A DNA stretch of 64,000 bases from Silvibacterium bohemicum. Lineage in GTDB: Bacteria > Acidobacteriota > Terriglobia > Terriglobales > Acidobacteriaceae. Within the stretch, counting starts at the first letter, position 1, and each line of letters starts with the position of its first letter. The notes below the pieces were generated by a model. That model had not been told where the DNA came from and searched no databases. It saw only the letters and a program-made list of their open reading frames with translations. The translations under genes were made by a program, and so were the position numbers. The stretch lies in assembly GCF_001006305.1 (NCBI RefSeq), contig NZ_LBHJ01000020.1, positions 558,001 through 622,000 of the forward strand, in the 5' to 3' direction. Below are positions 18,221-31,346 of this stretch, one piece after another.

Positions 18221-18358
18221 TATTGCCAATCATTGGCCCACGGTTGCGGAATCCTGGGTCAAGTCGGCATCCTGTGCAAGTACCTCTACCGATACTGCAA
18301 TCCAGGCCCCAAAAGCGGCTTCAACCCTACGCAAAGTGATAAAATTACGGTTACTGAC

Positions 18359-19837
18359 ATGCCTCTGAAAACACTGTTTTTGAACCCACCCTCATTCGAG
18401 AATTTTGACGGCGGCGCGAGTTCGCGCTGGCCTGCGACGCGCGAAATCGAGTCCTATTGGTATCCGGTCTGGCTGGCTTATCCGGCTGGCATGCTGGAAG
18501 GCTCGCGCCTGCTGGACGCGCCTCCGCACCATGTCACCGCGCCGGAGACCATCGAGATTGCCAAGGGGTTCGATTTCCTGGTGCTTTTCACCAGCACCCC
18601 CGGTTGGACGGGCGATCAGAAGCTGGCCGAGGCGATCAAGAAGGCCAATCCGAATATTCGTGTGGCGTTCGTCGGACCGCCGGTCACCACGTCGCCGGAC
18701 CGCGCACTGAATGAGTGCCCGACCATCGACTTTGTCTGCCGCCGCGAGTTCGATTTCTCCGTGGTGGAGTTTGCCAACGGCAAGCCGCTGAATGAAATTC
18801 TCGGCATCAGCTATCGCCAGGACGGCAAGATCGTGCACAATCCCGACCGGCCGCAGGTGGAAGATCTGGACGCCATGCCGTGGGTCACAGACATCTATAA
18901 GCGCGACATGGACGTGACCAAGTACAACGTCCCGTTCCTGCTGCATCCTTATGTTTCGCTCTATTCGACGCGCGGCTGCCCGGCGCAGTGCACCTTCTGC
19001 CTTTGGCCGCAGACGCTCTCCGGCCACGCCTGGCGCAAGCGCTCGACCGATGATGTAGCGGCCGAAATGGCCCACGCCAAGAAGCTCTTCCCGCATGTGA
19101 AGGAATTCTTCTTCGACGACGACACCTTCAACATCCAGAAGGCGCGCACTGTCGAGCTCTGCGCGAAGCTCAAGCCGCTCGGACTCACCTGGTCCTGCAC
19201 CTCGCGCGTTACCACCGACCGCGAGACGCTGAAGGCCATGCGCGAGGCCGGCTGCCGGCTGCTGATCGTTGGCTACGAGTCGGGCGATCCGCAGATCCTC
19301 AAGAACATCAAGAAGGGCGCCACCGTCGAGCGCGCCCGCGACTTCACCAAGGACTGCCACGATCTCGGTCTCACCATCCATGGCGACTTCATTCTCGGCC
19401 TGCCCGGCGAGACCAAAGAATCGATCCGCAACACCATCAACTTCGCCAAGAGCCTGGACGTCGAGACCATTCAGGTTTCGATTGCCCACGCCTATCCGGG
19501 AACAGAATTCTACGACTTCGCCCGCGAGAATGGCTTCATCGTGAACGACGGCCAGATGGTCGACGACGAAGGCCACCAGCTGGCGCACATCGAGTATCCG
19601 GGACTGCCCAAGGAATACGTTCTGGAGATGGTGCATCGCTTCTACGACGAGTACTACTTCCGTCCCAAGGCAGCGGCGCGCGTAGTTTGGAAGGCCATCG
19701 TCAATCGCGATATTCCGAGACTTTATGCGGAGTCGAAGTCCTTCCTGAAGCTGCGTGCGCAACGAAACAGGGTTGTGAAGCAGGCCAAGTCGGATTCGAC
19801 AGCGAAGACCACAACGCCGGCCAACGCCGGAGTTTAG
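18359..19837 (+). CDS. hpnJ: Hopanoid biosynthesis radical SAM protein HpnJ
   Basis: HpnJ is required for the last step to bacteriohopanetetrol cyclitol ether, where a sugar ring is contracted. The 492 residues begin with the family N-terminus KTLFLNPPSFENFDGG and YPVWLAYPAG. A B12-binding-like domain comes next, then the radical SAM cluster Cys207-X3-Cys211-X2-Cys214 in RGCPAQCTFCLWPQ. The SAM-binding part holds EFFFDDDTF and FILGLPGE. The frame opens at 18233, but the homologous start is the ATG at 18359. The glycosyltransferase HpnI and deacetylase HpnK, which act just before it, are not adjacent. A stem-loop follows, then two EamA genes. Confidence 0.88.
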   Translation: MPLKTLFLNPPSFENFDGGASSRWPATREIESYWYPVWLAYPAGMLEGSRLLDAPPHHVTAPETIEIAKGFDFLVLFTSTPGWTGDQKLAEAIKKANPNIRVAFVGPPVTTSPDRALNECPTIDFVCRREFDFSVVEFANGKPLNEILGISYRQDGKIVHNPDRPQVEDLDAMPWVTDIYKRDMDVTKYNVPFLLHPYVSLYSTRGCPAQCTFCLWPQTLSGHAWRKRSTDDVAAEMAHAKKLFPHVKEFFFDDDTFNIQKARTVELCAKLKPLGLTWSCTSRVTTDRETLKAMREAGCRLLIVGYESGDPQILKNIKKGATVERARDFTKDCHDLGLTIHGDFILGLPGETKESIRNTINFAKSLDVETIQVSIAHAYPGTEFYDFARENGFIVNDGQMVDDEGHQLAHIEYPGLPKEYVLEMVHRFYDEYYFRPKAAARVVWKAIVNRDIPRLYAESKSFLKLRAQRNRVVKQAKSDSTAKTTTPANAGV

Positions 19838-19900: not shown

Positions 19901-20365
19901 ATGACCAAATCGACGATGACATTCCGGCGCTATGTGGTGCTAGGCGTGGTGGCCGTGACCGCTCCGCTTGGCGACACGCTGTTGAGCGCGGGGATGGAAA
20001 AGGTCGGGCCGGTTTCGCTGCACCATCTCTCCGCTCTTATCTACGCGATACAAACGCCGCAGATCCTGCTGGGCATCGTTCTCCTGATCGCCTTCTTCGC
20101 ATCGTATCTGGCTTCCCTCTCCTGGGCCGACCTCACCTATGTGCTGCCGGCGACCTCCATCGGCAATGTAATCGTCGCCTTGCTCGCGCGGTTCTGGCGG
20201 CATGAGCAGATCTCGCCGCTGCGCTGGCTGGGAATTCTGCTGATTACGGCTGCCGTCGGCTTTGTGGCACAGGGACCTTCGTACACCGAAGTCGAGGAGA
20301 AAAAGCCGGTTCCTTGCGAGATTTCGCCTGAGTCTGTCGGCACACCAACGAGGCAATCCTCATGA
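19901..20365 (+). CDS. Half-size EamA/SMR-like membrane protein (first of pair)
   Basis: This protein of 154 residues has four predicted membrane helices of the EamA (drug/metabolite transporter) half type. Examples are ILLGIVLLIAFFASYLASL and LGILLITAAVGFVAQG, with a loop PATSIGNVIVALLARFWRHEQ. The C-terminal 25 residues are polar. It overlaps the next gene by four bases (ATGA), so the two are translated together and probably form a heterodimer, as ArnE and ArnF do for a lipid-linked sugar. Its position behind hpnJ suggests transport of a polar hopanoid lipid. That role is inferred. Confidence 0.75.
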   Translation: MTKSTMTFRRYVVLGVVAVTAPLGDTLLSAGMEKVGPVSLHHLSALIYAIQTPQILLGIVLLIAFFASYLASLSWADLTYVLPATSIGNVIVALLARFWRHEQISPLRWLGILLITAAVGFVAQGPSYTEVEEKKPVPCEISPESVGTPTRQSS

Positions 20366-20748
20366 TTCAACATGGATGGGCGGACGCCGCCATGATCGGG
20401 GCTATCGTTGTCTTCGCCACCATCGGCGATGTGTTGATCGCAGCCGCCATGCGCGCCATCGGTGACCTGGATGACATCAAGGCTGCGCGCGGGCTAGGCG
20501 GAGCTATCCTCGCCGTGCTGGGCAGCGTGCGCTTCGTCTCCGGCGTCTTCTTCATGGCGCTCAGCTTCTTTTCGCTGCTCTTCGCGTTGAGCCACGCGGA
20601 TCTAAGCCTGATCGCGCCGGCTTCTGCATCGCTGACGTTTGTAACGAATGCGGTGGCGGCGAAGATCTTCCTCAAAGAAAATGTCGACCGGCGCCGCTGG
20701 ATTGCGGCGGTCTGCGTCTGCGCTGGCGTCATCCTGATGGCGCACTGA
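20362..20748 (+). CDS. Half-size EamA/SMR-like membrane protein (second of pair)
   Basis: The 128-residue product has four predicted helices. Its third and fourth helices carry the EamA hallmark LSHADLSLIAPASASLTFV, then KIFLKENVDRRRWIAAVCVC, the usual end of the fold where a conserved charged loop (KEN) precedes the last helix. Its ATG overlaps the upstream stop codon. Two half-size proteins of this kind make one antiparallel transporter. The next gene, 54 bases on, is an AhpD-like protein and may be separate. Confidence 0.77.
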   Translation: MIQHGWADAAMIGAIVVFATIGDVLIAAAMRAIGDLDDIKAARGLGGAILAVLGSVRFVSGVFFMALSFFSLLFALSHADLSLIAPASASLTFVTNAVAAKIFLKENVDRRRWIAAVCVCAGVILMAH

Positions 20749-23461: not shown

Positions 23462-24388
23462 TCAGCTACCCCTGATGCGATTGAAGAACGATTGCGCCAT
23501 GCCGCAGGCCAGTATCGACAATTTCTTTGCCGTCGAGACCTGGACGCGCTTCGCGAAGACCTCGTAATTGTGCCGCTCGATCTCCTTGAGCAGGCAGTGG
23601 TAGATCGAGATCAGCACCCAAAGCGCGGGACGGGCATCGGCCGAGATAAGCGGCAACAGCGCGCGGCCGGATTCGTAATAGTGTTCGGCACGTTTTGCCT
23701 CCATCTCCAGCAGTTCACGCGGATTCAGCGTGAGATGGCCCTTACCCTGCGCCAACTTGCTTAGATCCTGTATAGAGACGGAGTGGCTCTCGAGATCTTC
23801 CAGAGGAAGATAGACTCTTCCTCGCTCCAGATCCTCGCGCACATCGCGGAGGATATTGGTGAGCTGGAAGGCGATGCCAGTCTCTTCGGCGAGCTTCTCC
23901 GCGCCGGGATCGGTATAGCCGAAGATGCGGATGCAGACCAGTCCCACGACCGAAGCCACCAGGTAGCAGTAACGATAGAGATCGTCGAAGGTCTCATAGG
24001 TGTCGTACTGCAGAGGATGAACGGAGTCTGGCTGATCGCGATGCAGATCCATGGCTGTACCTTGAACCAGCTGATCGAGGAGCTGCGATGAAATCTGAAA
24101 GCGGGCCTGCGCATCGGCGAGCGCGATGAAGACAGGATCGGCTGTCGGCTCACCTTGTGAAGCGTGGTGCCACGCATCGATCCAGGCGGCCATGCGATCG
24201 CGGCGCTCCGCTATGGGGAGCGATTCGTCGTCGGAGAGGTCGTCGGCGTGGCGCATGAAGGCATACACCGCGCAGATTGCGTCGCGCTTGGCGCGAGGCA
24301 ACGCGACGAAGGAGTAGTAGAAATTCTTGGCTTCGCGCCGGGCAATCTCTCGACAGGCCCGATACGCGTCTTCGACGGAAGGATTCAC
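23462..24388 (-). CDS. hpnD: Squalene/phytoene synthase family, HpnD-like presqualene diphosphate synthase
   Basis: Enzymes of this family join two farnesyl or geranylgeranyl diphosphates head to head. HpnD makes presqualene diphosphate for hopanoids. The first Asp-rich motif is in MRHADDLSDDES, the second in ILRDVREDLERGRVYLP, and YCYLVASVVGLVCIRIFG lines the active site. It has 308 residues and starts at GTG. Its position downstream of hpnA, hpnG and two dehydrogenases favours HpnD over phytoene synthase. HpnC and HpnE are not seen in this window, so I cannot exclude a carotenoid role by context alone. Confidence 0.72.
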   Translation of the reverse strand: MNPSVEDAYRACREIARREAKNFYYSFVALPRAKRDAICAVYAFMRHADDLSDDESLPIAERRDRMAAWIDAWHHASQGEPTADPVFIALADAQARFQISSQLLDQLVQGTAMDLHRDQPDSVHPLQYDTYETFDDLYRYCYLVASVVGLVCIRIFGYTDPGAEKLAEETGIAFQLTNILRDVREDLERGRVYLPLEDLESHSVSIQDLSKLAQGKGHLTLNPRELLEMEAKRAEHYYESGRALLPLISADARPALWVLISIYHCLLKEIERHNYEVFAKRVQVSTAKKLSILACGMAQSFFNRIRGS

Positions 24389-24526: not shown

Positions 24527-25585
24527 CTACGGGATGATCGCGGTCTTGATGTCGCCCAGCCCGTCCTGCCGCGAGCGGTTCATAAGTCCGCGCAGAACGC
24601 CATCGAGGTCGGCCAGCGGCGCACGGCCGGTGATGGTCTCACGGCAATTGAATTTACCGCTGCTGATCAGCTCGAAGGCGCGGCGCGCCGTTCCCGGCGT
24701 GTGATGGAAGCTGGCCTTGAGCGTGATGTCGTGATAGTGCAGCCGGTTGGTATCGAGCTCGACTTTGGTGCCGGCTGCGGGGCCGCCGAAGAAGTTCACC
24801 GTCCCGCCCTTGCGCACCATCTCCACCGCCCACTGCCAGGTTTCGGGAACGGCTACGGCCTCGATGGCGATGTCGACGCCGCGGCCTTCGGGAGTGAGTG
24901 CGCGCACCGCTTCAATCGGATCGTCGACGGCGACGGTCTGCACCACATGCTCGGCGCCAAAGGTGCGGGCGGCTTCAATCTGCTCATCGTGCTTCACTAC
25001 GGCGATCACGCGCATGCCCGCCAGCTGCGCCGCGTGCATGAACATCAGCCCGATGGGTCCGGCGCCGATCACGGCGAGCAGGTCTCCGGGCTGCGCATTG
25101 CTCTCTTCCAATCCGCGCAGGACGCAGGCCAGCGGCTCGGTGAGGGCGGCATATTCGAAGGGAAGCTCGTCGGGAATGAGCAGCGTGTTCTTGGCAACGA
25201 TGCGCGCCGGAATGCGCAGGAACTCGGCGTAGGCTCCGTTATTGAAGAGCAGATCGTCGCAGAGATTCTGCTGACCGCGCAGGCAGAAGTAGCAGGCGTC
25301 GCAGGGAGCCGAGTTCAGCGCGACGACGCGGTCGCCGGGCTTGAAGCAGGTCACTCCCGCGCCAACCTCATGCACCGTTCCGGCCAGCTCGTGGCCAAAG
25401 GGGATTGGCGGCTGCAGCATCTTGGCGTGATAGCCGCGGCGATAGACCTTCACGTCCGTGCCGCAGGTGAGTGCGGCGTGTACACGGACGACAATTTCGC
25501 CCTCATCCGCCCGGGGTATGGGCAGGCGCTCGATGCGCAAATCCTCGCGTCCATAAAGGACCGCGGCTTTCATCTCCGGGGCCAT
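24527..25585 (-). CDS. Zinc-dependent alcohol dehydrogenase (MDR family), second of tandem pair
   Basis: An enzyme of 352 residues. The catalytic zinc ligands are visible in LTCGTDVKVYRRG and PFGHELAGTVHEVG. The structural zinc site is in APCDACYFCLRGQQNLC. The Rossmann motif is VIGAGPIGLMFMHAAQLAGM. The closest functional types are sorbitol, threonine and sugar-alcohol dehydrogenases. The substrate cannot be read off. It lies 78 bases downstream of the other dehydrogenase and upstream of hpnD, all on one strand, so it is likely in the hopanoid transcription unit. Confidence 0.87.
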   Translation of the reverse strand: MAPEMKAAVLYGREDLRIERLPIPRADEGEIVVRVHAALTCGTDVKVYRRGYHAKMLQPPIPFGHELAGTVHEVGAGVTCFKPGDRVVALNSAPCDACYFCLRGQQNLCDDLLFNNGAYAEFLRIPARIVAKNTLLIPDELPFEYAALTEPLACVLRGLEESNAQPGDLLAVIGAGPIGLMFMHAAQLAGMRVIAVVKHDEQIEAARTFGAEHVVQTVAVDDPIEAVRALTPEGRGVDIAIEAVAVPETWQWAVEMVRKGGTVNFFGGPAAGTKVELDTNRLHYHDITLKASFHHTPGTARRAFELISSGKFNCRETITGRAPLADLDGVLRGLMNRSRQDGLGDIKTAIIP

Positions 25586-25663
25586 CTGTCGTCTTTCGTA
25601 CTCGTATCTATTTTCTCAGAGTTGCGGCATTCCGCGCCGGGCGTTCTGTTCTGGGGATGGGAA

Positions 25664-26770
25664 TTAAGGCTCGATAAAAATTTTCATAGATCCAGCCGTG
25701 GGGTGGGAGGCGACATCGATCGCCTCAACTGCGTTCTCCAGGGAAAAACGGTGCGAAATCAAGCGAGTGAGGTCGAAACCATCATGATAGCCCTCAAAGA
25801 CCAACTTCGCTCCCTCCTCCTGAATTTCAACCGAGGCGCTGTAGGAGCCGAGCAGGGATTTCTCGTCCATACAGATGGCGGCCGGGTCGACCATAGCATC
25901 GCCATGTTGGGTTTGCGCAAAAAGCAGGACACGTCCGCCGGGCCGCGCCGCGTCCATGGCGGTTTTGATGAGGGCGTCCACGCCCACGGCAAGGATGACG
26001 GCATCGGCGCCGCGGCCTTCGCTGGCCGCGCGGGTAGCCGCGATCACATCCGACTGCCCCGAGAGGATGGGATGCTTCAGGCCATAGGTTGCGGCGACAG
26101 CGTGGCGCTCGGCATAGAGGTCGGACGTCAGGACCTTGGCCCCGGTCCGTGCAGCCAGCGCGGCGAGCAGGATGCCGATGGGTCCCTGGCCGATCACGAG
26201 AACCGTTTCGTCCGGCGCAAGTGACAGATTTTTTATGGCCTTATAGCAGGTGTTGACGGGCTCCACGAACGCCGCCTGCTCGAAAGGAACGCCATCGGGA
26301 ATCTTGAGGAGGCCGCCCTCGACGATCCAGTCCATGACCCGCACATACTCGGCAAAACCGCCGCCGGAGGGCTCGAAACCTGCGGCGCATCCGACCTTTT
26401 TATAGACCGGGCACTGCGCGAAGGTTTTTTTGCGGCAGTAATAGCAATGGCCGCAGGGGATGTGGTGGAAGACCATCACGCGGTCGCCGACGGCGAAGTT
26501 TCGCACGCCCTCACCTACCGCGGCGATGGTTCCGGCCGTCTCATGGCCGAAGATGCGCGGCGCGGAGTGGGAGCCGGTGTGGATCTTCTTGAGGTCGGTT
26601 CCACAAACGCCGCAGGCGGCGACGCGGATCAGGACTTCGCCCCGTCCGATCTCGGGCACGGGAACCGTTTCTACGCGCACGTCATTCACGCCGCGGTATA
26701 CGGCCGCGCGCATGGTTGCGGGGATTTTCTCCTGCCCCGCCGAATACTTTACTGCTGAAACTGTCGCCAT
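25664..26770 (-). CDS. Zinc-dependent alcohol dehydrogenase (MDR family), adjacent to hpnG
   Basis: This product of 368 residues has the zinc ligands in CGVCGTDLKKIHTGSHSAPR and IFGHETAG, the structural Cys set in HIPCGHCYYCRKKTFAQC, and the nucleotide motif VIGQGPIGILLAALAARTGA. It resembles threonine/sorbitol dehydrogenases. The ATG at 26770 follows the hpnG stop by 14 bases, with AAAGAG as the ribosome-binding site, so the two are coupled. HpnG releases ribosylhopane, an aldose. An MDR enzyme next to it could reduce that aldehyde form to bacteriohopanetetrol. This is inference from position and chemistry. Confidence 0.87.
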   Translation of the reverse strand: MATVSAVKYSAGQEKIPATMRAAVYRGVNDVRVETVPVPEIGRGEVLIRVAACGVCGTDLKKIHTGSHSAPRIFGHETAGTIAAVGEGVRNFAVGDRVMVFHHIPCGHCYYCRKKTFAQCPVYKKVGCAAGFEPSGGGFAEYVRVMDWIVEGGLLKIPDGVPFEQAAFVEPVNTCYKAIKNLSLAPDETVLVIGQGPIGILLAALAARTGAKVLTSDLYAERHAVAATYGLKHPILSGQSDVIAATRAASEGRGADAVILAVGVDALIKTAMDAARPGGRVLLFAQTQHGDAMVDPAAICMDEKSLLGSYSASVEIQEEGAKLVFEGYHDGFDLTRLISHRFSLENAVEAIDVASHPTAGSMKIFIEP

Positions 26771-26784
26771 AAATGCTCTTTAGA

Positions 26785-27516
26785 TTATAAAGTTTGCGTC
26801 AACGATTCCCGTGCCAATGTGGCTAACGCCGAGGCGGCAGCGCGGCTGGCGGTCCCAAGCTTGACCAGCGACGGCCAGTACCATGGGCGGAGGCCAATAT
26901 AGGCCAGGAAGGCTGGCATGCGCAGCTCCCCTTCCCACGAGATGAAGCGGCTGAAGTCCGGCAGACGGTCGGTATATCCATCGGAAACGCCTTTGAAGCA
27001 ATAGAAACGGCTCTTCTGCTGGCTGGCCAGCCGGGCGACCGCAGCCGCTTCCATGTCGACCAGGACGGCCTGGTTCCTCTCCGCCAGCTTGCGCTTTTCG
27101 TGTAGACGGGCGACGCGGTTCAGGGTGAGCAGGCGGGTTCCGGCGGAATCTCCGGTGGCGAATCGCTTTCCCGACTGGAGATCGATCACCTCGGAGATGG
27201 ACGCGGCCATGCCCGGCTTGATGGCGCAGGTCAGAGCGCCAGCCCATCCGTAGGAGACGAGTACGTTGGGGTGAAACTCGGAGTTCGCCTGCGCCACGGC
27301 GCGATTGGCGGCAGCGGCGCCCATGCCTCCGGCTATGGCGATACAGGGGTAGTCGCCAATGGAGCCGGTCCAGGCATGCTTCCCGGTCTGCTTCCATCCC
27401 TGGACGAGCGGCTTCAACTCGCCGGGAAGAGCGGCGATGATGGCGATGCGTGTTTGAGAAGACGATGGAGGCGTAGATTGAACCAGAGAGCGATCCCTCA
27501 GCGGCTGAAGCCGCAC
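26785..27516 (-). CDS. hpnG: Hopanoid-associated nucleoside phosphorylase HpnG
   Basis: HpnG removes adenine from adenosylhopane to give ribosylhopane or its phosphate. The 243 residues fit the purine nucleoside phosphorylase/MTA nucleosidase fold: IAIIAALPGELKPLVQGW at the start, GGMGAAAANRAVAQA, VSYGWAGAL, and the substrate-binding VDMEAAAVARLA and FKGVSDGY. The only start codon in this frame is a GTG at 27516. It lies inside the family A repeat, so about 20 N-terminal residues (RLQPLRDRSLVQSTPPSSSQ) derive partly from the repeat. Context (hpnA upstream, dehydrogenases downstream) supports HpnG over a general phosphorylase. Confidence 0.78.
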   Translation of the reverse strand: MRLQPLRDRSLVQSTPPSSSQTRIAIIAALPGELKPLVQGWKQTGKHAWTGSIGDYPCIAIAGGMGAAAANRAVAQANSEFHPNVLVSYGWAGALTCAIKPGMAASISEVIDLQSGKRFATGDSAGTRLLTLNRVARLHEKRKLAERNQAVLVDMEAAAVARLASQQKSRFYCFKGVSDGYTDRLPDFSRFISWEGELRMPAFLAYIGLRPWYWPSLVKLGTASRAAASALATLARESLTQTL

Positions 27517-27696: not shown

Positions 27697-28692
27697 TCAT
27701 GCCGGCGGCGCGTATCCGTGCGCGCGAAACCAGGCGATGGCGGCTCGCAGTGCCTCATAGACCGGGACGATGCGGAAATCGAGTTCGCGCTGGGCCTTGG
27801 CAGATGAAGCGAACATCTTCTTCCTGCCCATGCGCACCGCTTCCATGGTAGCCCGCGGCTCCTTGCCCAGGATGCGGCCGGTGATGGTTTCATCGAAGAA
27901 GGCGAAGATCATGGCGACGGAGTGCGGCACCTTCATTGTCGGCGACGGGAGGCCGGTAATAGCGGACATCTTGTCCAGAATCTGCTTCAGCGTGAGGTTC
28001 TCCCCGCCGAGAATGTAGCGCTCGCCGGAGCGGCCTTTTTCGAGCGCAGCCGCATGGGTTCTGGCGACCTCCGCCACATCCACCAGGTTCAGCCCGGTAT
28101 CGACGTATGCGGGAAATTTCTTGTTCAAAAAATCGACGACGATACGGCCGGTCGGCGTAGGTTTGACGTCCTGCGCGCCGATAGGTGTGGTGGGGTTCAG
28201 GATGATGACCTGCTGGCCGGCGCGGGCGGCTTCGATCGCCACCTGCTCGGCCATGAACTTCGACCGCTTGTAGTGGCCGACCATGTCGGCGAGTGAGACG
28301 GGCGTGGTTTCGTCGACGATGGTACCGTCCGATTTGAATCCCATGGTGGCTACGCTGGAGGTGTAGACGACGCGCGCGATCCCCTCTTCCCGCGCAATGC
28401 GCAACAGGGAGCGCGTGCCCTCGACATTGGCGGCATACATATCCTGCGGATCGCGAACCCAGAGGCGGTAGTCGGCAGCGACGTGCATCAGGGCGTCGCA
28501 GCCGCGGATCGACGAACGCAGCGTTTCGGGCTGCCGCAGGTCGCCGACGATGGTCTCGGCCTGCAGCCCCTCCAGATTCGCCATGTTGCTGGTGGGCCGC
28601 ACCAGCAGGCGAAGCTGCGCTCCCTGCAATGCAAGGTGCTTCGCGACATGCGCGCCGACAAAACCTGTAGCTCCAGTGAGAAAGACCTTCAT
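27697..28692 (-). CDS. hpnA: Hopanoid-associated sugar epimerase HpnA
   Basis: This is an extended SDR (NAD-dependent epimerase/dehydratase) of 331 residues. The Rossmann motif is GATGFVGAHVAKHL. VRPTSNMANLEGLQAETIVGD is the characteristic opening of the HpnA group. The catalytic residues are Ser in YTSSVATMG and Tyr-Lys in HYKRSKFMAEQ. HpnA occurs in hopanoid gene clusters, but its exact reaction is not established. It is the first gene of the minus-strand run hpnA-hpnG-adh-adh-hpnD. The gap to the divergent radical SAM gene is 150 bases and must contain both promoters. Confidence 0.8.
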   Translation of the reverse strand: MKVFLTGATGFVGAHVAKHLALQGAQLRLLVRPTSNMANLEGLQAETIVGDLRQPETLRSSIRGCDALMHVAADYRLWVRDPQDMYAANVEGTRSLLRIAREEGIARVVYTSSVATMGFKSDGTIVDETTPVSLADMVGHYKRSKFMAEQVAIEAARAGQQVIILNPTTPIGAQDVKPTPTGRIVVDFLNKKFPAYVDTGLNLVDVAEVARTHAAALEKGRSGERYILGGENLTLKQILDKMSAITGLPSPTMKVPHSVAMIFAFFDETITGRILGKEPRATMEAVRMGRKKMFASSAKAQRELDFRIVPVYEALRAAIAWFRAHGYAPPA

Positions 28693-28842: not shown

Positions 28843-29907
28843 ATGACGACTTCTCTCGTCCAGATAGCGACGCCTCCTGCCGCCTCTTCGCTTGCCTCGC
28901 AGGTGATCGAACAGCTGCCGGTGCTGGTGCTTTTTCCGCACAATCGCTGCAACTGCCGGTGCCTGATGTGTGACATCTGGAGGATTCGCGAGGTTCGCGA
29001 GATCCGGACTGAAGATCTTCTGCCTCACCTCGAGTCGTTTCGCGCGCTGGGCACGCGCTGGATCGCGTTGTCTGGCGGCGAAGCACTGCTGCACCAAGAC
29101 CTGCGCGGCTTCATGGAGGTTTTGCGTAACGAAGGCATCCGCATCACGATACTTTCGACCGGCCTGCTGCTCGGCGAGAAGGCCGCAGAGATCGCCGAGT
29201 TCGTCGACGACGTGATCGTCTCACTGGATGGCCCACGCGAAACCCATAACAAAATTCGCCGCGTTCGCGACGCCTTCGAGCAGATGGCGCATGGCATCGC
29301 TGGCCTGCGATCGCTACGCAAAGACATGCAGATTGCGGCGCGCAGCACCGTACAGAAGAATAACTTCCGGCAGATAGCGCAGACCATCGACGCGGCGCAC
29401 GAGCTGGGGTTGGACTCCATCTCGTTTCTTCCTGTCGATGCGACGTCGGAAGCCTTTAATCGCGAGGATGGATGGAGCGATGACCGGCAGGCGACGGTCA
29501 CACTGAGCCGCGAAGAAGTCACCGAGCTTTCGGATGGGCTGGAACAGTTGAGCATCGACTATGCCGAGGATTTCCGGAGCGGGTTCATCCGCGAGAGCCC
29601 GGAGAAGATGCGCCGCATCGTCCATCATTTCCGCAGCGCGCTCGGGGATGCGGAGCCGGTCGCTCCTCGCTGCAACGCGCCCTGGGTCTCGGCGGTCGTC
29701 GAGGCCGATGGAACGGTGCGGCCCTGCTTCTTTCATCCCAGCATCGGCAATTTTTATGAGCGTCCGCTGGCTGAGATCGTGAACAGCGATGCCGCCCTGC
29801 GCTTTCGCGCTTCGCTGGATATCGAGAGCAACGCCATCTGCAAGAAATGCGTCTGCTCGCTCTACTACTCGGAAGCTCCTATCAATTCCGAAGACGCCGC
29901 GAGATAG
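28843..29907 (+). CDS. Radical SAM protein with SPASM-type C-terminus
   Basis: The protein of 354 residues has the 4Fe-4S motif Cys36-X3-Cys40-X2-Cys43 (with an additional Cys38) in RCNCRCLMCDIW. SAM-domain strands include WIALSGGEALLHQDL and VIVSLDGPRETHNKIR. The C-terminal part has CNAPWVSAVVEADGTVRPC and ends CKKCVCSLYYSE, a SPASM or twitch auxiliary-cluster pattern as in MoaA/PqqE-like maturases. It is not HpnH, whose motif differs. A ribosome-binding site (GAAGAGG) precedes the ATG. The substrate is unknown. The divergent arrangement with hpnA suggests a link to lipid chemistry. Confidence 0.85.
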   Translation: MTTSLVQIATPPAASSLASQVIEQLPVLVLFPHNRCNCRCLMCDIWRIREVREIRTEDLLPHLESFRALGTRWIALSGGEALLHQDLRGFMEVLRNEGIRITILSTGLLLGEKAAEIAEFVDDVIVSLDGPRETHNKIRRVRDAFEQMAHGIAGLRSLRKDMQIAARSTVQKNNFRQIAQTIDAAHELGLDSISFLPVDATSEAFNREDGWSDDRQATVTLSREEVTELSDGLEQLSIDYAEDFRSGFIRESPEKMRRIVHHFRSALGDAEPVAPRCNAPWVSAVVEADGTVRPCFFHPSIGNFYERPLAEIVNSDAALRFRASLDIESNAICKKCVCSLYYSEAPINSEDAAR

Positions 29908-30023: not shown

Positions 30024-31346
30024 TTAGTCGTAGTACTCGAGTCCGAGGTGGGTGATCAGCTCATGCCCCATGATGTGGCGGAGGGTGTTCTTGAGCTTCA
30101 TCTGCTGGATGAAGAGATCGTGCTCGGGATACAGGCCGGGGGCGCTCTGCGGGGACTTGAAGTAGAAGCTCAGCCACTCCTGAATGCCTAAGTGCTTCAG
30201 CGCCGGAGTCCGCTGCGCGAGGTCCAGAAGGATGACCAGATCGAGGGCCAGAGGCGCGGCGAGGATCGAATCGCGGCAGAGGAAATCAACCTTGATCTGC
30301 ATGGGATATCCGAGCCATCCGAAGATGTCGATATTGTCCCAACCCTCTTTGTTATCACCGCGCGGCGGGTAATAGTTGATGCGAACCTTGTGGTACAGAT
30401 CCTTGTAGAGATCGGGGTAAAGCTCGGGCTGGAAGATGTAATCCAGCACACCCAGCTTCGACTCTTCCTTGGTCTTGAAGGACTCGGGATCGTCCAGCAC
30501 CTCGCCATCGCGGTTGCCGAGGATGTTGGTCGAGTACCAGCCGCTGACTCCCAGCATGCGCGACTTGAAGGCCGGAGCGAGAACCGTCTTGATGAAGGTC
30601 TGGCCGGTCTTGAAGTCCTTGCCGCAGATGGGTGCGCCGGTCTGCTTGGAGAGCTCGATCATGCAAGGCAGGTCGACGGTGAGGTTCGGTGCTCCGTTGG
30701 CGAAGGGAATGCCCTCCTTAAGGGCGGCATAGGCGTAAATCTGCGAGGGAGCGATGGCGGGGTCGTTGTCGACCAGTCCCTTCTCAAAGGCGACAAGGGT
30801 CTGGTGAACAGCCGTGGGCTCGAGGAAGATCTCGGTCGAGCCGGTCCAGATCATGACCACGCGCTCCACCTTGGACTTGAAGTTCTGGATGTCGGCAATG
30901 ACCTGCTGGGCGAGATCGCACTTGTTCTTGCCAGTCTTCACGTGCGTGCCGTTCAGCCGCTTGACGTAGTGCTGGTCGAAGACGGCGGGCATCGGCTTGA
31001 TGTTCTCGAGAAACGGCTTGATGGTGTTCAGGTGGTCGTTGTCCAGCACCTGGGCGTGCTTGGCCGCCTCGTACATGTCCTCGGGGAAGATTTCCCAGCC
31101 AGTGAAGACGATGTCGTCGAGTGAGGCCAGCGGCGCAAAATCCTTAATCAGCGGCGTGTTGTTGTCGGTCCGCTTGCCGAGGCGGATGGTCCCCATTTGG
31201 GTGAGTGAGCCAATCGGTTTGGCCAAACCTTTGCGGACCGCCTCGACCCCGGCAATCAGCGTGGTGGCCACGGCGCCCATGCCGACCACCATGACTCCAA
31301 GTTTTCCTTCTGCTGGCTGAATGTTTTCAGCCTTGGGTGTAGACAT
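30024..31346 (-). CDS. myo-Inositol-1-phosphate (inositol-3-phosphate) synthase
   Basis: The enzyme turns glucose-6-phosphate into inositol phosphate with catalytic NAD. The 440 residues have GVMVVGMGAVATTLIAGVEA (NAD site), SGWYSTNILGNRDGEVL (conserved core with substrate contacts) and PQLYPDLYK-like sequence in the dimer region. DSILAAPLALDLV closes the active site. The length matches the bacterial and archaeal group with a long insertion. The product could serve inositol phospholipids, lipid headgroups or compatible solutes. It is alone on its strand here, with a 206-base leader to the next gene upstream. Confidence 0.93.
   Translation of the reverse strand: MSTPKAENIQPAEGKLGVMVVGMGAVATTLIAGVEAVRKGLAKPIGSLTQMGTIRLGKRTDNNTPLIKDFAPLASLDDIVFTGWEIFPEDMYEAAKHAQVLDNDHLNTIKPFLENIKPMPAVFDQHYVKRLNGTHVKTGKNKCDLAQQVIADIQNFKSKVERVVMIWTGSTEIFLEPTAVHQTLVAFEKGLVDNDPAIAPSQIYAYAALKEGIPFANGAPNLTVDLPCMIELSKQTGAPICGKDFKTGQTFIKTVLAPAFKSRMLGVSGWYSTNILGNRDGEVLDDPESFKTKEESKLGVLDYIFQPELYPDLYKDLYHKVRINYYPPRGDNKEGWDNIDIFGWLGYPMQIKVDFLCRDSILAAPLALDLVILLDLAQRTPALKHLGIQEWLSFYFKSPQSAPGLYPEHDLFIQQMKLKNTLRHIMGHELITHLGLEYYD

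Follow-up and report, generated by a model that had tools for sequence, protein, structure and literature searches.

The window, a stretch of 64,000 nucleotides from the genome of Silvibacterium bohemicum (contig NZ_LBHJ01000020.1, positions 558,001 to 622,000 of the forward strand), carries on its minus strand a cluster of genes for hopanoids, sterol-like lipids of bacteria, with two adjacent alcohol dehydrogenase (ADH) genes, which we call ADH1 and ADH2. According to our analysis, the two encoded enzymes probably act at some step in the synthesis of the hopanoid side chain. An earlier note, made from the letters of this stretch, had described the gene order as hpnA, hpnG, adh, adh, hpnD-like with 14 bases between hpnG and the first dehydrogenase. 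The open reading frames (ORFs) lie in this order, and the 14-base gap follows from their coordinates; ADH1 and ADH2 are separated by 78 bases, ADH2 and the hpnD-like gene by 138 bases (Table 1). The labels hpnG and hpnD are right as to the best-matching family, but both scores fall below the family cut-offs, as does the score of the hpnD-like gene with the HpnC model (166.7 bits). The cut-off of the HpnG family (TIGR03468) was reached by none of 46 acidobacterial genomes picked by hand for this search, 43 of which have a match at 1e-8, and is therefore unsuited to Acidobacteriota. The hpnH gene of S. bohemicum is located on a different contig from the dehydrogenase pair. No promoter-like sites were found at the locus, and terminators occurred at chance level.

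Table 1. Genes of the hopanoid region in the window, with positions counted from its first nucleotide.
Feature	Position	Strand	Family evidence
hpnJ, radical SAM (bacteriohopanetetrol cyclitol ether step)	18233-19837	plus	769.5 bits, above cut-off
EamA/SMR-type small protein, first	19901-20365		
EamA/SMR-type small protein, second	20362-20748		
hpnD-like, squalene/phytoene-synthase family	23462-24388	minus	HpnD best family, 233.6 bits; cut-off 278.6
ADH2, zinc medium-chain dehydrogenase/reductase (MDR), NADP-type motif, 352 aa	24527-25585	minus	ORF, Pfam
ADH1, zinc MDR dehydrogenase, NAD-type motif, 368 aa	25664-26770	minus	ORF, Pfam
hpnG-like nucleoside phosphorylase/hydrolase (PNP_UDP_1)	26785-27516	minus	TIGR03468 best family, 83.6 bits; cut-off 187.1
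hpnA, short-chain dehydrogenase/reductase (SDR), 'hopanoid-associated sugar epimerase'	27697-28692	minus	TIGR03466, 504 bits; cut-off 367.65
SPASM radical SAM gene	28843-29907	plus	
inositol-phosphate synthase gene	30024-31346	minus	

Both dehydrogenases contain the ADH_N and ADH_zinc_N domains with scores above the Pfam cut-offs, and their zinc ligands are intact, in agreement with the earlier description as zinc alcohol dehydrogenases. Neither protein reaches the cut-off of any NCBIfam model. The best model for ADH2 is scyllo-inosose 3-dehydrogenase IolM (NF041097; 168.8 bits, with 150.8 bits for ADH1 and a cut-off of 450), that for ADH1 an L-threonine dehydrogenase model (152.6 bits, cut-off 380); with the L-threonine 3-dehydrogenase model TIGR00692, ADH2 scores 161.4 and ADH1 148.9 bits, below the cut-off of 458.35. 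Residue counts were taken from aligned rows of the families f1, f2, f28, f50 and f39, some rows stemming from the same genomes (throughout, G denotes a genome, f a family and L a locus). The catalytic zinc ligands and the structural four-Cys site are intact in all 105 ADH1 rows and all 76 ADH2 rows. An acidic residue at the end of strand beta-2 is the usual mark of NAD specificity, and Lys or Arg nearby that of NADP specificity. All 105 ADH1 rows have Asp or Glu at this position; in 75 of 76 ADH2 rows it is not acidic, and most of these have Lys or Arg adjacent to it. The same split occurs in rows of f32, f60, f66 and f34.

The arrangement seen in the window is widespread and belongs to the cluster with which many soil Acidobacteria make hopanoids. 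A scan of contigs with an ADH1 profile yielded, as its best 80 loci, sequences all titled Acidobacteria or genera of that group; these loci were chosen by likeness to ADH1 and not by gene context. At 78 of the 80 loci an HpnG match ends no more than 500 bases upstream of ADH1 on the same strand, so that the linkage between hpnG and ADH1 is not due to chance. One of the two other loci has the HpnG match 1073 bases away, and in L120 no HpnG was detected. At 55 of the 80 loci ADH2 lies no more than 500 bases downstream of ADH1, often succeeded by HpnC, HpnD and HpnE, and the fullest loci read IspA-Shc-HpnH-ug3-HpnA-HpnG-ADH1-ADH2-HpnC-HpnD-HpnE. Co-occurrence with hpnG across acidobacterial genomes, the absence of which the earlier note had named as one way to refute its proposal, was thus found, with exceptions in both directions that are treated below.

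Gene order was also examined in sixty neighbourhoods among 80 genome stretches picked by hand, with genes called by a custom codon score. The order HpnA-(HpnG)-ADH1-ADH2-squalene synthase repeats in f1, f2, f28 and f50. In f2, f28 and f50 the identity of ADH1 is only ~50%, yet the order is kept, and in all 11 loci of these three families the ends of the two dehydrogenase genes share 4 bases. The two genes are also inherited together where they are not neighbours. All 38 genomes with a strong ADH1 match (above 350 bits; the next match has 192) keep a strong ADH2, although the two lie apart in 17 of them. In eight of these 17 split clusters inspected (L046-L053), ADH2 adjoins HpnC and HpnD in every case. 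With broad profiles of both dehydrogenases, an ADH1-type match is found in each of the 62 ADH2-clade genomes, adjacent to ADH2 in 42 and apart from it in 20.

Both genes have been flagged before. Sinninghe Damste et al. (2017; PMC5462960), in the parts covered here, describe acidobacterial hopanoid clusters A, B and C with the unknown genes ug2, ug3 and ug1. There, ug2 stands before hpnC and is tied to the squalene genes hpnC, hpnD and hpnE; its product of ~350 aa often bears the annotation Zn-binding alcohol dehydrogenase. The gene ug1 follows hpnA-hpnG. ADH2 corresponds to ug2 by position and annotation, as far as those parts describe it. From its position in strains named there we take ADH1 to be ug1: at the loci of KBS 83, KBS 89, TAA166 and T. 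roseus (L159, L149, L183 and L193), ADH1 follows HpnG. In the same parts of the article ug1 and ug2 are given no function, ug1 is not called a dehydrogenase, and the two are not recognized as a pair; a search of open-licence literature, partly covered in the same way, turned up no assignment of function to either gene. What is sharpened here is the pairing, the split in cofactor motifs and the association with hpnH and not hpnE.

This association was established with a set of 247 Acidobacteriota genomes, which were searched for HpnH, HpnE, ADH1 and ADH2 and with the broad profiles. Matches above cut-off were found for HpnH in 62 genomes and for HpnE in 67. The ADH2 clade, defined by at least 306 bits (the next match has 276), likewise comprises 62 genomes; this threshold and the control set of 18 genomes were fixed after the scores had been seen. 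Co-occurrence with hpnH, as expected of a hopanoid side-chain gene, is seen in 52 of 62 genomes whichever of the two is taken as reference, with ten exceptions each way (Fisher test, p 7e-33). At the level of families, both occur in one genome in eight cases, HpnH alone in seven, ADH2 alone in three and neither in 54 (p 6.5e-5); this table omits f25, where HpnH and ADH2 are found in different genomes, and the total of 73 families was taken from the last family number, f73. Neither genomes nor families are independent, so shared ancestry is contained in both p values and counts against too strong a reading of them. In a control clade of related MDR enzymes no association with HpnH is seen (4 of 18 genomes, p 0.71).

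The profile also qualifies the published tie of ug2 to squalene genes. If the pair served squalene synthesis, as the link of ug2 with hpnC, hpnD and hpnE in the covered parts of PMC5462960 would suggest, the persistence of ADH2 beside HpnC and HpnD in the split loci would be explained. Among genomes with HpnE, however, ADH2 is present in 32 of 33 that also have HpnH and in one of 34 that lack it, and it is kept in 20 of 29 HpnH genomes without HpnE above cut-off. ADH2 thus follows HpnH and not HpnE, which argues that the dehydrogenases track side-chain extension; a role in squalene synthesis was rejected as the main explanation, and we regard it as highly improbable. S. bohemicum itself belongs to the 20 genomes: no HpnE match was found in its genome at 1e-25. 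It has a second gene of the squalene synthase family on contig C16 (847931-848800, locus L214), and absence of HpnE together with such a second gene has been reported for some relatives (PMC5462960, parts covered).

The step for which the earlier note had put forward a dehydrogenase as candidate is the conversion of ribosylhopane to bacteriohopanetetrol. A recent article (PMC12583986, 2025), in the part covered, states with reference to Bodlenner 2015 that the enzyme of this step is not established, which bears out the note in calling the reductase unassigned. The side-chain role proposed in the note gains support from the conserved operon, from the tracking of hpnH instead of hpnE, and from a relative in a sugar cluster described below. 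What the two enzymes convert, into what and in which direction, and how they share the work, we infer as follows. ADH1 and ADH2 would form a co-inherited zinc MDR pair acting, downstream of HpnH, on the side chain, a ribose-derived polyol. ADH2 would use NADPH to turn the C-35 aldehyde group of open-chain ribosylhopane into a primary alcohol, giving bacteriohopanetetrol; since the tetrol tail is a ribose-derived polyol, this would be the simplest fit. The NAD-type ADH1 might work on this chain too, either in the direction of ADH2 or in reverse, for instance by taking the tetrol back to an oxo compound from which other products are made, or might take part with ADH2 in the inversion of a hydroxyl group. 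That one of the two enzymes reduces ribosylhopane is a tentative proposal to which we give somewhat less than even weight. For this reaction we favour ADH2 because of the cofactor motifs, and not ADH1, the enzyme beside hpnG on which the earlier note had centred.

Beyond the shared ancestry in the association tests, several observations weigh against this reading. Ten HpnH genomes have no member of the ADH2 clade (G007, G029, G059, G071, G092, G099, G119, G208, G235 and G246; G099 is 71% complete and G208 89%). An HpnG match is present in nine of these ten, and therefore another enzyme must serve there if tetrol is made; eight of the ten have HpnA above cut-off. Conversely, ADH2 is found without HpnH in ten genomes (G055, G078, G098, G113, G132, G176, G207, G211, G221 and G230), of which G113 (93% complete) and G211 (84%) have a hopanoid-type cluster despite the lack of HpnH; the other eight are 96-100% complete. 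Pairs of ADH1 and ADH2 in f25, f32, f45, f47, f60 and f34 have no hpn gene within the stretch examined. In f28 the pair directly follows HpnA with no HpnG in between (L065-L072, L075), and three HpnG-like matches tested, of eight f28 genomes having one, all score best as nucleosidases (methylthioadenosine nucleosidase) or futalosine hydrolase; judging from these scores, a nucleosidase may replace HpnG in this family. Finally, the acidic, NAD-type motif is present in both members of the pair in f45, f25 and f47. The NADP argument for ADH2 is therefore not general, and a rule of 'NAD plus NADP' for all pairs was dropped. The idea of one reductase serving every hopanoid producer in the phylum was rejected as well, since no ADH2-clade gene was found in seven HpnH families of the sample or in G029 (f25).

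One of the exceptions also counts in favour of the proposal. The genome G007 (f1, locus L094), estimated to be 100% complete in ~100 contigs, has shc and hpnH, with the contig ending ~2.4 kb after HpnH. No match to HpnG (at 1e-8) or HpnA (at 1e-60) was found in it, nor any to hpnE, ADH1 or ADH2 with the thresholds applied. This pattern fits the loss of the stretch hpnA-hpnG-ADH1-ADH2 as a block, and from its gene content G007 is predicted to stop at adenosylhopane.

A strong rival for the reductase role is HpnA. It was proposed for the reduction of ribosylhopane in PMC5462960 (parts covered), and the ADH pair would then bring about an additional side-chain modification that is specific to the lineage. 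We searched for HpnA in 42 genomes picked by hand: 32 of the 62 HpnH genomes, G113, G211 and eight other HpnH-negative ones. It scores above cut-off in 30 of the 32 HpnH genomes (exceptions G007 and G059) and in none of the eight HpnH-negative genomes, with weaker matches in five of these eight and with G113 and G211, which both have HpnA, left out of the count; since the tested set was chosen to include all ten exceptions, these rates are not comparable with those for ADH2. The second NCBIfam match of the HpnA in the window is SdmB, a protein of sterol demethylation, with 222 bits and a cut-off of 600, which also speaks for such a role. On the other hand, HpnA above cut-off is missing from G059, a genome with HpnH and a match to HpnG, and hpnA is dispensable for tetrol in Burkholderia cenocepacia and absent from Rhodopseudomonas, as cited in the parts of PMC5462960 covered. 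On balance we consider reduction by HpnA, with a later role for the pair, doubtful.

A different use of two dehydrogenases would be a redox epimerization, in which the NAD-type enzyme oxidizes a side-chain hydroxyl group and the NADPH-type enzyme reduces the resulting ketone from the other face, giving, for example, the 34R tetrol. This would account for the retention of both enzymes in 38 of 38 genomes, even where the genes are unlinked, and 34R and 34S tetrols do exist and are poorly separated (PMC12583986, part covered). It does not agree with the families f45, f25 and f47, in which both members are of the NAD type. No data on acidobacterial tetrol stereochemistry were found in the parts of PMC5462960 covered, where words beginning with 'isomer' do not occur ('stereoisomer' was not searched for). 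We hold epimerization as such to be quite unlikely. A broader version, in which an acidobacterial two-enzyme module with NADPH and NAD, drawn from sugar-alcohol dehydrogenases, jointly reduces the tetrol tail and sets its stereochemistry, is in our view speculative and, if slightly less so, also unlikely. Were it true, it would fill the unassigned step in the synthesis of C35 hopanoids and could possibly account for the stereoisomers of tetrol that serve as biomarkers. In sediments, bacteriohopanetetrol and related compounds are common bacterial biomarkers, and with two conserved candidates in culturable Acidobacteria and HpnA as a ranked rival the reductase gap becomes testable.

The pairs outside hopanoid clusters raise the question whether ADH1 and ADH2 are general sugar or polyol dehydrogenases merely carried along in the operon. 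Their neighbours include prephenate dehydratase, MscS, dxs, a CHAT protein, and solute-binding and TonB-type proteins, and no common neighbour was found among the genes annotated; moreover, the closest solved structures by sequence are a xylitol dehydrogenase and a ketose reductase. Against this stand the gene order and the 4-base overlaps, which are kept at ~50% protein identity, and an association with HpnH that extends to f47 and f32, families whose pairs are not linked to hpn genes; we find this explanation very unlikely. In f47 the pair is adjacent by coordinates in 11 of 11 genomes, five of which were examined; in the stretches seen, the pairs of f47 and f32 are not beside hpn genes. The f32 genomes G096, G123 and G165 have, besides ADH2, an ADH1-type match that is not linked to it (425-434 bits; not among the rows of the tree described below). 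In f66 no hpn gene was seen next to the pair, but the contig is too short for a judgement.

Some other genes recur around these clusters. A protein of ~148 aa, ug3, is encoded behind hpnH in many acidobacterial loci (e.g. L055:6485-6931); one such protein tested had no Pfam match at 1e-5. In three loci of HpnH lineages that have no linked pair (L096, L103 and L104), shc-hpnH-(hpnA)-(hpnG) clusters occur with genes of the mevalonate pathway and of the squalene synthase family; these genes are annotated in L104 and recognized by similarity in L096 and L103. The SPASM radical SAM and inositol-phosphate synthase genes that lie beyond hpnA in the window both adjoin hpnA in L118, the synthase alone in L054 and L119. 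Two small, overlapping EamA/SMR-type genes adjoin hpnJ in the window and are kept beside it in L054, L062, L063, L101, L119, L132, L162 and L175, though not in L095. They presumably resemble the two-part flippase of the ArnE/ArnF type and look like a candidate flippase for a sugar-bearing hopanoid.

In a phylogenetic tree, ADH1-type and ADH2-type rows form two groups, in each of which the hopanoid-linked families are nested beside rows from unlinked pairs; several rows are long-branched, and the tree program warns of them. Because of this nesting in both groups, the pairs outside hopanoid clusters are regarded as old relatives of the same two-gene unit. Beyond Acidobacteriota, relatives were sought on plasmids; among the matches listed, the best rows have 37% identity for ADH1 and 47% for ADH2, and two of ten listed rows were examined for ADH1 and three of ten for ADH2. 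Both of the rows examined for ADH1 come from sugar-transport clusters and are placed outside the clade. Two of the ADH2-side relatives (38%) adjoin FGGY kinases and also fall outside the clade. The third, a zinc dehydrogenase on a plasmid of Rhodococcus opacus (WP_242323970.1), is placed within the ADH2 clade (support 100/99, on a long branch), with 49% identity at best.

When compared with solved structures, ADH1 is closest in sequence to xylitol dehydrogenase (7y9p) and ADH2 to NADP-dependent ketose reductase (1e3j). Both proteins resemble the zinc MDR polyol dehydrogenases (xylitol and sorbitol dehydrogenases, ketose reductase) in domain family, catalytic Cys-His-Glu ligands and structural four-Cys zinc site. 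They differ in the Phe-Arg-Tyr (FRY) segment of 7y9p and 1e3j, the Arg of which we take to bind substrate in polyol dehydrogenases: its Arg-Tyr is absent from both ADH1 and ADH2. All 105 ADH1 rows have Ser there, and 75 of the 76 ADH2 rows have His-His, with a gap in the remaining one. Across the pairs printed, the signature is Tyr-Ser in ADH1 and Phe/Tyr-His in ADH2. HpnA shares with the pair its membership of an NAD(P)-dependent oxidoreductase family, the operon and the step for which it has been proposed, but belongs to the SDR/epimerase family and not to the zinc MDR enzymes. The R. opacus enzyme shares the FHHTP signature with ADH2 and differs from the hopanoid-linked form in its NAD-type motif; its gene is surrounded by those for an FGGY kinase, a class II aldolase, a DeoR-type regulator and a major facilitator superfamily (MFS) transporter, a sugar-catabolic cluster. 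On the basis of these motifs and neighbourhoods, hopanoid-linked ADH2 may be read as a biosynthetic, NADPH-using form within a lineage of sugar-alcohol dehydrogenases.

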